DNA of 64,000 bases from Actinomycetospora soli (GTDB taxonomy: Bacteria > Actinomycetota > Actinomycetes > Mycobacteriales > Pseudonocardiaceae): NCBI RefSeq assembly GCF_021026295.1, contig NZ_JAJNDA010000003.1:310001-374000 (forward strand). Direction: 5' to 3'. The notes under the pieces were generated by a model. The model was not told the DNA's origin, did not search any database, and saw only the letters and a program-made list of their open reading frames with translations. Within the stretch, counting starts at the first letter, position 1, and each line of letters starts with the position of its first letter. This document shows positions 4,035 through 13,128 of this stretch, in pieces. The position numbers and the translations under genes are program-made.

Positions 4035-5935
4035 GCGACCGCGTCGTTCGCGCGGAAGCTGAGGCTGTTCGTGTTCGGCCGGGTGAACGCACCCGGTAGC
4101 CGCACCGTGGTGTGCGGCCCGATCGCGAACAGCCGCGGGTGCGGCTCCTGCTCGGGGCCGGTGAGCACCCGGTGGTCGGCGGGGTCCACGGGGACGAGAC
4201 CCGTGGAGTGCTCGACGACGCCGGAGTAGTCGTCGCCGCGCGAGCAGGCGTTCCAGCTCAGCGTCTCCTCGTCGACGAGTCCGGCCCGCATCAGCGAGCG
4301 CAGCATCGGGTCGGAGCTGCGGCGCACGCTGGGTGAGGCGAGCCGGGCGTCGACGAACGTCGTGGCCCGGGTCGGCGGCGCGTCCAGCGCCGCGCCGGTG
4401 GCCACGAACGACGGCGTGCTCTCGTCGATCTCCACCGACACGCCCGACCCCAGGAACGTCACGAACCCGGCCCGGTTGAGCGCGAGCAGCTGACGCAGCC
4501 GCGGCCCGGGCGGCCCGCTCGCGAGCGACGAGAACAGGTTCTGCCACCAGCCCAGGTCGCGGGCCCGCGACTTCGCGGTGAGCGCGCCACGGCTGGTGAG
4601 CTCGACCGACTGCATGTAGGCGCTCAGGATCGCCGTGAAGGCGCCCAGCTCCTCGGTGTGCGTCGGGTCGACGTGTCGCGCGAGGTCGTCGCTGATGTAG
4701 GTCCGCAGGAACTTATGCAGCGTGTCGGGGTCGGTCCGCAGCCCGTCGAGCGGCCGGTCGAGCTGCTCGAAGTCGAGCCGGTCGGCCTCGTCCGGCACGT
4801 GGTGCTCGACGAGCCGCTCCCGCTCCACCGAGTACCAGTCCACCTCGGCGTAGGCCGCGGCGAAGGTGTCCCAGTCGCCGACGACGCGGTCGGGGTGGCC
4901 GTGGAAGAGCTCGTGGTACCAGCCCCAGCCTGCCTCCTTGGCGATGAGCGGCCACGCGTCCTTGCGCAGGCTCACCCCGCCCTGCCGGGCCGCGAGCTCG
5001 TCGACCTGGTCCGGCCCGAAGAACCGCGGCAGCGGCGGGCGCGGTCCGATCAGCGTGTACTCGGTCTTCGCGTGGTACGGCACGCCCCGGCCGGAGCCGA
5101 CGTGCAGCGACACCTCGCGGCCCGACGGGACGTAGACCAGGCGACCGCGCCCGGACCCGTCGTCGGGACCCTCCGGGTCCTCCTCGAAACGGCCGCCGCG
5201 ACCCTCGAAGAGCAGGACCATGAGGTCGATGAACGCGAGGCCCATCCCGCGCGCGAGCACGGTCTCCCCCGGCGGGATCGTGTCCAGCTCCGAGTCCGAC
5301 GTCTGCTCGGGCGCGAAGTAGCGCAGCCCGAGGCGCTGCGAGCAGCGCAGCAGGGCGGCCTCGTCGTCGGTCGGGGCGGCGTCGAGGTGGCCGGAGGCGA
5401 GGACGACGGCGTCCGCGTGGAGCACGTCACCGTCCTCGAGCCGGACCCGACGCAGGTCGCCGTCGACGAGGCCCGCCGCGCGCTGCTGGTGGACGTGGAC
5501 GCGGACGCCGTCGGGGGCGGAGGCGAGGACGCGGTCGAGGACGTCCGCGAGGTAGTGGCTCTGCAGCTGCCGGGTGGGGAACGTGGCGCCGGTCAGCGAC
5601 CGGATCTCCTCGCCGACGCGGCCCTCGGGCTCCGCGTGCGCGTCCCGGACCTCCTCGGCCCACTCGATGAGGCTCGGGCCGGGGACGATCGGGCCGGTGC
5701 ACGTGACCGAGTCGTCGGTCCACATCGTCACGTCCGCCGCCATGGAGTTCATCCACAGCAGCTCGGACTGCGCCGTGCGCCAGATCCGGCCGGAGCCGGC
5801 GGGGTACGGGTCGACGAGGTGGACGTCGAGCGGATGCTCGGCGTCGACCCCCGCGCCGGGCGCGCCGGCGACGAGACGTTCCAGCACCCCGGTCCCGCGT
5901 GGTCCGCCACCGACGATCACGACCGAACGCGTCAT
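4001..5935 (-). CDS. FAD/NAD(P)-binding protein, large flavoprotein
   Basis: A 644-residue protein with an N-terminal dinucleotide-binding loop (VVIVGGGPRGTGVLERL, residues 5-21) and a second Rossmann-like stretch (DADAVVLASGHLD), as in the FAD-NAD(P)-binding family. No substrate can be assigned. The ATG at 5935 lies 8 bases after TACCGT (5949-5944), so the mRNA is probably leaderless. A longer in-frame extension to 6187 is unlikely because it would cross the palindromic intergenic region. The 3' end overlaps the sigma factor gene by 34 bases on the other strand. Confidence 0.85.
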   Translation of the reverse strand: MTRSVVIVGGGPRGTGVLERLVAGAPGAGVDAEHPLDVHLVDPYPAGSGRIWRTAQSELLWMNSMAADVTMWTDDSVTCTGPIVPGPSLIEWAEEVRDAHAEPEGRVGEEIRSLTGATFPTRQLQSHYLADVLDRVLASAPDGVRVHVHQQRAAGLVDGDLRRVRLEDGDVLHADAVVLASGHLDAAPTDDEAALLRCSQRLGLRYFAPEQTSDSELDTIPPGETVLARGMGLAFIDLMVLLFEGRGGRFEEDPEGPDDGSGRGRLVYVPSGREVSLHVGSGRGVPYHAKTEYTLIGPRPPLPRFFGPDQVDELAARQGGVSLRKDAWPLIAKEAGWGWYHELFHGHPDRVVGDWDTFAAAYAEVDWYSVERERLVEHHVPDEADRLDFEQLDRPLDGLRTDPDTLHKFLRTYISDDLARHVDPTHTEELGAFTAILSAYMQSVELTSRGALTAKSRARDLGWWQNLFSSLASGPPGPRLRQLLALNRAGFVTFLGSGVSVEIDESTPSFVATGAALDAPPTRATTFVDARLASPSVRRSSDPMLRSLMRAGLVDEETLSWNACSRGDDYSGVVEHSTGLVPVDPADHRVLTGPEQEPHPRLFAIGPHTTVRLPGAFTRPNTNSLSFRANDAVAQALLAITADD

Positions 5936-11606: not shown

Positions 11607-11739
11607 GCCCTCATCCTCGCACCGACCCCCGACAGCGTGGTGTGGGCAACGCGTGGAGCAGTGGCCGTCCGTGCTCCGGGTGCCGTAACGTGCCCGTAGC
11701 GCGACCGCGGGGCGGAGCCCGGCGGACAATCGAATACGG

Positions 11740-11851
11740 CTCATCCAGAGGGGTAGAGGGAACGGCCCGACGACACCCCGGCAACCGGCGGCGCCTCCAC
11801 GTGCGCAAGACCGGTGCCAATTCCGACCCGCGGACCCGCGGGGAAGATGAG
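11740..11851 (+). ncRNA. SAM-I (S-box) riboswitch
   Basis: The region matches the SAM-I aptamer: P1 5' strand CTCATC (11740-11745), CCAGAGGGG, kink-turn and core GAGGGAACGGCCC, CCCCGGCAACC, then GGTGCCAATTCCGACC and P1 3' strand GATGAG (11846-11851). P1 pairs perfectly over 6 bp. The 3' strand of P1 overlaps the Shine-Dalgarno GAGGAG (11849-11854) of the gene downstream, so SAM binding should hide the ribosome site and lower translation. No separate terminator is visible before the start codon. Confidence 0.93.
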
Positions 11852-11865
11852 GAGATCACTCTTCC

Positions 11866-13128
11866 ATGACCCTGACTGCGCCCGACCAGACGGCGACCGG
11901 CTACGACCTCGGCCCGGCCGCCGCCCTCTCGTGTCGCGCCTGCGGCCACCGCACCCCGCTCGCCCCGGAGTTCGCCTGTCCGCAGTGTTTCGGGCCCCTC
12001 GAGATCGCGTACGACTTCCCGTCGATCACCCGGGAGGAGATCGAGCGGGGCCCGAAGTCGATCTGGCGGTACAAGAAGCTGCTCCCCGTGCCGAGCACGG
12101 TCGAGGCGCACCCGAACATGGACCCCGGGTTCACGCGGCTCATCCGCGCCGACCGGCTGGGCGCCGAGCTCGGCATCCGGAACCTGTGGGTCAAGGACGA
12201 CACCGGCAACCCGACGCACTCCTTCAAGGACCGTGTCGTGGCCGTGGCGCTCGCCGCCGCCCGTGAGCTCGGCTTCACCGTGCTGGCCTGCCCGTCGACC
12301 GGGAACCTCGCCAACGCCACCGCCGCCGCGGCCGCCCGCGCCGGGTGGGACTCCGTCGTGCTGATCCCCTCCTCGCTGGAGCGGGCCAAGGTCCTCATGA
12401 CCGCGGTGTACGACACCAACCTGCTCGCCGTCGAGGGCAACTACGACGACGTCAACCGGCTCGCCACCGAGCTCGCGTTCGAGCAGGAGGACTGGGCGTT
12501 CGTCAACGTCAACGTCCGCCCCTACTACGCCGAGGGCTCCAAGAGCCTGGGCTACGAGATCTCCGAGCAGCTCGGGTGGCGCATCCCCGCGCAGACCGTG
12601 ATCCCGGTGGCGTCCGGCTCGCAGCTCACGAAGATCGACAAGGCGTACGGCGAGCTGGTCTCCCTCGGGCTCGTCGACGAGGCGGACTGGCGGATCTTCG
12701 GGGCGCAGGCCGCCGGCTGCTCGCCGGTGTCGACCGCGTTCCGCGAGGGCACCGACGTCGTGAAGCCGCAGCGCCCCGACACGATCGCCCGCTCGCTCGC
12801 GATCGGGAACCCGGCCGACGGGCCCTACGTCCTCGACACCGTCCGCCGCACCGGCGGCGCAGTCACCGACGTGACCGACGACGAGGTCCGCGACGGGATC
12901 CGGCTGCTCGCCCGCACCGAGGGCATCTTCGCGGAGACCGCCGGCGGGGTGACCGTGGCGAACGCGAAGAAGCTCGTCGAGTCGGGACAGCTCGACCCCG
13001 ACGCCGACACCGTCCTGCTCATCACCGGCGACGGCCTCAAGACCCTCGACGCCATCGAGCACCAGGTCGGTCCGAAGGCCACCGTCCCGGCCACGTCGAA
13101 GGCCGTGCGCGAGGCCCTCGGCATCTAG
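11866..13128 (+). CDS. thrC: Threonine synthase family PLP enzyme with zinc-ribbon N-terminus (threonine synthase or MetM-type homocysteine synthase)
   Basis: A 420-residue PLP enzyme. Residues 20-45 form a zinc-ribbon-like motif (CRACGH ... CPQC). The PLP lysine lies in NPTHSFKDRV (about residue 120) and the glycine loop in ACPSTGNLANA. Family members turn O-phosphohomoserine into threonine. The SAM-I riboswitch directly in front is not expected for a threonine gene. A threonine-synthase-like enzyme, MetM, reported from Streptomyces makes homocysteine from O-phosphohomoserine with a sulfur-carrier protein. That role fits the riboswitch, but no carrier gene adjoins it. ATG 11866 has GAGGAG 11 bases ahead. 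Its TAG shares a CTAG with the comEC stop. The symbol follows the family name only. Confidence 0.85.
   Translation: MTLTAPDQTATGYDLGPAAALSCRACGHRTPLAPEFACPQCFGPLEIAYDFPSITREEIERGPKSIWRYKKLLPVPSTVEAHPNMDPGFTRLIRADRLGAELGIRNLWVKDDTGNPTHSFKDRVVAVALAAARELGFTVLACPSTGNLANATAAAAARAGWDSVVLIPSSLERAKVLMTAVYDTNLLAVEGNYDDVNRLATELAFEQEDWAFVNVNVRPYYAEGSKSLGYEISEQLGWRIPAQTVIPVASGSQLTKIDKAYGELVSLGLVDEADWRIFGAQAAGCSPVSTAFREGTDVVKPQRPDTIARSLAIGNPADGPYVLDTVRRTGGAVTDVTDDEVRDGIRLLARTEGIFAETAGGVTVANAKKLVESGQLDPDADTVLLITGDGLKTLDAIEHQVGPKATVPATSKAVREALGI

Follow-up and report, generated by a model that had tools for sequence, protein, structure and literature searches.

The SAM-I riboswitch that stands ahead of a threonine synthase family gene in Actinomycetospora soli raises the question of which amino acid the encoded enzyme helps to make. 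We analysed the locus within a 64-kb window, the whole stretch of DNA (64,000 nucleotides) to which positions refer unless a contig or locus is named, together with the rest of the genome and relatives. The best explanation overall, to which we give a probability of roughly 0.75, is that gene 11866-13128 encodes a predicted MetM-type homocysteine synthase behind SAM-I. The sequence-only reading had already favored MetM, and that prediction of function from sequence gains support from the clade of the protein, the riboswitch, and a separate ThrC in the same genome. According to this proposal, hom and thrB would supply O-phospho-L-homoserine to MetM, which would swap the phosphate for sulfur from a protein thiocarboxylate to yield homocysteine.

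The carrier MetO delivers sulfur as a thiocarboxylate. Streptomyces MetM converts O-phosphohomoserine to homocysteine (Hasebe et al. 2024, as described in the accessible part of PMC12172450), and the same part of that source places a SAM riboswitch upstream of metM in S. albulus. The A. soli gene resembles the Streptomyces system in its ThrC-like enzyme (63 to 66% identity to 12 Streptomyces orthologues) and its upstream SAM riboswitch, but lacks a metO behind it and lies in a genome that also has metX-metY.

The riboswitch and its gene

The aptamer core and helix P1 reported earlier hold up, as RF00162 is matched over model positions 1 to 108 of 108, well above the gathering score of 44.4, with the P1 pairing aligned (Table 1), and no other RF00162 match in the window exceeds that score. 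The leader has an ordinary single-sequence folding energy (z −0.82; 39 of 200 shuffles were equally good), so the RNA call rests on the covariance-model score and on conservation in relatives. There the association is consistent: SAM-I lies 5′ of the MetM-type gene in 92 of 92 tested loci beyond the window, made up of 52 opened loci from 52 genomes, 20 from named genomes, and 20 additional Pseudonocardiaceae loci, although the same species may recur among them. All six Streptomyces orthologues tested have SAM-I ahead.

Table 1. Positions and basis of the features at the locus
Feature	Position	Strand	Basis
SAM-I (S-box) riboswitch aptamer	11738-11853	+	RF00162, 73.4 bits, E 2.7e-15
Helix P1, 5′ strand	11740-11745	+	Paired columns of covariance-model alignment
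Helix P1, 3′ strand	11846-11851	+	Covariance-model alignment; GATGAG strand in 148/161 loci
Shine-Dalgarno AGGAG	11850-11854	+	Sequence; overlaps P1 3′ strand by two bases
MetM-type homocysteine synthase gene (predicted; ThrC-like, 420 aa)	11866-13128	+	ORF, PALP, tree, fixed differences vs ThrC
Four-cysteine (zinc-ribbon-like) N-terminal segment, residues 23-41	11932-11988	+	Not diagnostic; lost in some relatives
Lysine 121 in SFKDR, presumed to hold PLP	12226-12228	+	Invariant alignment column

The aptamer ends 12 nt before the start of the gene, and its geometry agrees with translational shut-off, in which ample SAM would let the aptamer close P1, the 3′ strand would occlude the Shine-Dalgarno sequence that it overlaps, and translation would drop. 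In every one of the 148 loci with a GATGAG strand, that strand has a partner resembling CTCATC and is followed 8 to 20 nt downstream by a start codon; the search pattern found no such strand in 13 of the 161 loci. The overlap is only suggestive because purines already predominate at this place in the Rfam consensus for P1.

The assignment of the gene to the threonine synthase family is borne out by a PALP domain at residues 87 to 388 and a score well over the TIGR00260 thrC cut-off (263 vs 167 bits); the cut-off of PRK08197 is missed (267 vs 303 bits). TIGR00260, which labels the protein threonine synthase, does not separate MetM from ThrC. The AlphaFold model (mean pLDDT 84.2) has ThrC as its nearest fold in Foldseek matches, but with large rmsd; together with PALP, these matches place the protein among ThrC-like enzymes of PLP fold-type II, and the predicted structure does not tell MetM from ThrC. 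Lysine 121 presumably holds PLP, a role we assign from family knowledge. The CxxC…CxxC N-terminus (cysteines 23, 26, 38, and 41) had been put forward as evidence for MetM. It carries no weight, because the cysteines are replaced by SESD or SECD in one Pseudonocardiaceae locus (L066), Amycolatopsis (L214), and Actinopolyspora (L216), and cysteine-rich N-termini also occur in other ThrC-like proteins. The next long ORF 3′ of the gene is on the opposite strand and overlaps its stop codon, so the gene looks like a single-gene unit and, as noted from the outset, no carrier gene adjoins it.

Descent of the enzyme

In a 47-row tree, 37 MetM-type rows (13 of them from named species) stood apart from six ThrC rows with support of 96/86, a split that all 200 bootstrap trees recovered; four rows fell in no group (three ThrC-like, one CysM). 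The tree proposed earlier as a check thus comes out on the side of MetM: the window protein joins Streptomyces orthologues that have SAM-I and a MetO-like neighbor, which stand in for S. albulus MetM (outside the tree), and lies outside the ThrC group of hom-thrC-thrB operons. Its closest companions within the clade are Actinomycetospora rows, followed by those of Pseudonocardia, and all belong to a group of eight Pseudonocardiaceae rows with 100/100 support; the deep placement is unsure because of long ThrC-like rows. The protein is 97 to 99% identical to those of four Actinomycetospora genomes and 88% identical to the nearest named protein, from Actinomycetospora succinea. A second MetM-type copy was seen in one Pseudonocardiaceae genome (G438:C260:37642-38841), with 65% identity to the window protein.

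Residues fixed in the clade point the same way. At 27 columns, at least 36 of the 37 MetM-type rows are identical and five of five ThrC have another residue, and many of these columns lie in loops, where MetM-type STGNL, VNVNxRPYY, ASGSQ, ETAGG, and GLKT face STGNT, the SVN loop, GNAGN, EPASA, and GLKD of ThrC. The window protein lacks the ThrC set of loop residues (STGNT, the SVN loop, GNAGN, the SA of EPASA, and the D of GLKD), and the MetM loop motifs are retained in 41 to 44 of 44 Pseudonocardiaceae loci. The protein shares with canonical ThrC its fold and, as predicted, its chemistry on O-phosphohomoserine, but differs in these loop motifs and is 34% identical to the ThrC of its own genome.

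The ThrC-derived clade occurs in many actinomycete families behind SAM-I, usually ahead of a MetO-like gene. In the class-level set, 386 of 393 genomes had a match at E ≤ 1e-30, with ThrC counted too, and seven had none at that threshold; among the matches listed (to about 1e-172), MetM-type matches are spread over many families, families such as f2, f6, f24, f31, and f34 have ThrC-level matches only, and two of the same order (f3 and f4) have the gene, outside the 52 opened loci. A search for viral copies gave 23 pattern matches, none of them a relative. The 52 loci were hand-picked from at least 150 or so listed places in the 393 genomes and so lean to strong matches; 47 of them have a MetO-like ORF 3′ of the gene, the exceptions being L065 and L066 (both Pseudonocardiaceae), L073, L077, and L078. 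A scan of named genomes (the best 80 loci plus a Nonomuraea record, L207) found a carrier behind the gene in 59 of 81 loci, including 12 of 12 from Streptomyces and none of 14 from Pseudonocardiaceae or Actinopolyspora. Those 14 are among the 22 loci without metO, as are L213, L224, L226, L238, and L241; the last three, L227, L276, and L279, extend just 802, 81, and 1117 bases past the gene.

By descent, then, the enzyme is of the MetM type as far as sequence comparison can place it, with the SAM riboswitch of that type and without its metM-metO operon. Clade membership is no proof of the MetM reaction, as a Microcystis ThrC makes plain. This protein is 51.6% identical to S. albulus MetM and adjoins a MetO-like gene, is described without a riboswitch, and in vitro made threonine from O-phosphohomoserine and also degraded threonine (accessible part of PMC12172450).

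The sulfur carrier

If the A. soli enzyme is MetM, the question becomes where its sulfur comes from. The suggestion that a ThiS- or MoaD-like carrier be sought was borne out for the genome, not for the neighborhood of the gene: PF02597 finds three carriers, namely ThiS, which exceeds the TIGR01683 cut-off; a MoaD-like protein encoded next to moaA, which falls short of the cut-off of its family; and CysO. Behind metM itself, where metO would be expected, lies the opposite-strand ORF, and a MetO query at E ≤ 1e-5 matches CysO alone in the genome, leaving ThiS and MoaD unmatched. CysO is 57% identical to MetO over the match, far closer to it than ThiS or MoaD, and matches the carrier in 3dwg, a CysM complex, with 116 bits. 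It is flanked by a CysM gene (528 bits to the Mycobacterium O-phosphoserine sulfhydrylase CysM, 3dki) and by a candidate Mec whose JAMM-type match is weak. One residue follows its GG, so trimming would be required before thiocarboxylation. Many CysO and some MetO proteins (L031:6011-6334 and rows of the carrier tree) likewise have at least one residue after GG (R, MR, SR, C, and others).

The absence of metO from the locus extends across the family. MetM (E ≤ 1e-100) was found in 119 of 120 Pseudonocardiaceae genomes and a carrier by MetO query (E ≤ 1e-5) also in 119, with both in 118, and the nearest that a carrier comes to MetM on one contig is 167 kb, among listed matches that include the best carrier of each genome and some of the weaker second ones. 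There was no carrier near MetM in 30 Pseudonocardiaceae loci with flanks of up to 1.5 kb or in six with flanks of about 3 kb. Exactly one MetO/CysO-like carrier was found in 57 of the 120 genomes, including five of five from Actinomycetospora, and in all ten genomes of the 57 in which we examined it (the five Actinomycetospora plus G340, G394, G409, G415, and G417) it sits beside mec and cysM. A carrier tree splits 103 MetO from 48 CysO at 100/99, and its 15 Pseudonocardiaceae rows are all CysO.

Relocation of metO elsewhere in Pseudonocardiaceae genomes was considered and rejected: 62 of them have two or three carrier matches, and none of the ten second carriers examined falls in MetO, eight forming one clade with two other orphans and two lying weakly near CysO. 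These second carriers have neighborhoods of their own. In eight Pseudonocardiaceae genomes (L296-L299, L301-L303, and L305, at about 4200-4700), a ThiS-like carrier ending in SVAGG lies directly 3′ of a protein of about 360 aa that starts like IGTRKGLWLARS, a recurring pair. Another CysO-like carrier (L300 and L304, at about 4300-4660) lies near a gene starting like KVLMI[AS]MPWQGLDTPSSALGILG, perhaps in a specialized-metabolism cluster; in L304, its reading frame continues, by eye, into P450-like sequence.

Because no metO was found behind metM in Pseudonocardiaceae, MetM may borrow the cysteine carrier. CysO of mec-cysO-cysM is the likeliest sulfur donor, and we put at even odds that it serves both cysteine and homocysteine synthesis. 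Thiocarboxylate donors of this kind have precedents. In the Mycobacterium CysO-CysM-Mec system, a carrier thiocarboxylate passes sulfur to a PLP enzyme that makes cysteine from O-phosphoserine; the A. soli genome has the same gene trio (with the weak match for Mec), but the predicted product of MetM is homocysteine. In the HcyS/HcyD/MetY system of Wolinella succinogenes, a protein thiocarboxylate is the sulfur donor for homocysteine, as we propose here, but the enzyme there is MetY-type and here ThrC-like. To our knowledge, CysO has not been linked to MetM.

Alternatively, MetM could work without CysO and take its sulfur from free sulfide, ThiS, MoaD, or another carrier. Such a source would suit the lack of a MetO adjoining metM in the opened Pseudonocardiaceae loci and the presence of both ThiS and the MoaD-like protein in the genome, and a sodium sulfide assay gave an unidentified peak (accessible part of PMC12172450). 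We regard it as rather unlikely, given that CysO alone answers the MetO query in the window genome and that none of the ten second carriers in the family is a MetO. With CysO as donor, the fuller scenario is that Pseudonocardiaceae lost MetO and kept MetM, that CysO became the common thiocarboxylate donor to CysM and MetM, and that SAM closes the methionine branch through P1; the case for this scenario as a whole seems to us evenly balanced. That SAM-I is paired with MetM is already known, and the new points are the absence of metO behind metM across Pseudonocardiaceae and the possible role of CysO; a literature search, with most subscription papers outside its scope, returned neither a Pseudonocardiaceae-wide absence of metO nor a CysO-MetM role. 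If the scenario is true, a ThrC-like enzyme that draws on the same CysO as cysteine synthesis would carry some or all of the methionine synthesis in Pseudonocardiaceae, a large family of soil actinomycetes; both sulfur amino acids would be coupled through one carrier, and pathway models in which such genes figure as surplus threonine synthases would need to change.

Threonine and homocysteine routes in the genome

The genome (6.52 Mb, 69 contigs, 98% complete) contains one operon of hom (NF004976), thrC (TIGR00260), and thrB (TIGR00191), all above cut-off. The second thrC that the sequence-only reading had suggested looking for is therefore there, inside hom-thrC-thrB, and the window gene is not the sole threonine synthase gene. 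Against M. tuberculosis ThrC (2d1f), the genome's own ThrC reaches 497 bits and the window protein 148.

A second true threonine synthase, with supply tied to the SAM level, would account for the passing TIGR00260 score and for the closest solved structures and folds being ThrC, and the related Microcystis enzyme did produce threonine in vitro (accessible part of PMC12172450). In S. lividans, moreover, RF00162 stands ahead of SLIV_16930-SLIV_16925, listed under threonine biosynthesis in the accessible part of PMC8079986. RF00162 thus comes first in both cases, but is followed by two genes in S. lividans and by one in the window. We take the S. lividans genes to be probably its metM-metO pair. 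A second threonine synthase is improbable in our judgment, since a canonical ThrC is already encoded in hom-thrC-thrB, the 27 differing columns lie in many cases in cofactor and substrate loops, and SAM control with a sulfur-carrier neighbor in relatives would be senseless for threonine.

Homocysteine can probably be made in more than one way. The expectation that metX and metY might be missing failed, as both are present and adjoining (metX, NF047917, 527 bits against a cut-off of 475; metY, NF005872, 833 against 703). Next to a gene for cystathionine beta-synthase (TIGR01137, 599 bits), the genome encodes an enzyme of the cystathionine gamma-synthase type. It further encodes another MetY-like protein and one more distant member; metA and HcyBio were not found in it. 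The joint finding that had been named as telling against MetM, a sole threonine synthase gene together with a complete acetyl- or succinyl-homoserine route, thus holds for the metX-metY route and fails for the threonine synthase. With MetX-MetY encoded in parallel, MetM need not be the sole homocysteine route and the cell may not need it; from gene content, A. soli likely has two routes to homocysteine, MetM and MetX-MetY.

That MetX-MetY is the working route and MetM a redundant or decaying remnant after metO loss, as the presence of metX-metY and the absence of metO would allow, is very improbable, given MetM in 119 of 120 Pseudonocardiaceae genomes, the retained loop motifs, SAM-I preserved in all 20 tested loci of the family, and the absence of metX at E ≤ 1e-60 from 7 of 26 tested genomes. 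All seven metX-less genomes also lack metA and HcyBio, and five of them have a single carrier, so that MetM with CysO is the sole homocysteine route that can be named in those five; if the CysO proposal is true, it would be the sole route in such relatives, and the five strains could instead rely on external methionine. Because 71 of the 72 genomes in the metX test set were selected for having a MetM-type gene, we claim no correlation between MetM and metX loss.

SAM control of metX-metY was considered as well and rejected, as that region (L027) has no SAM riboswitch above the gathering score. Among six other regions of the genome scanned, one only (L035) has such a riboswitch, a second SAM-I on the same contig (contig positions 240388-240484; L035:4389-4485; 51.7 bits). 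It stands 5′ of genes for monooxygenase-like proteins, one of which belongs to the NtaA/DmoA FMN family. Some 20 to 30 kb beyond it lie another NtaA/DmoA member and genes encoding a PLP enzyme of the Cys/Met type and a sulfonate-binding protein of the SsuA type, possibly a set of sulfur-scavenging genes under SAM control.
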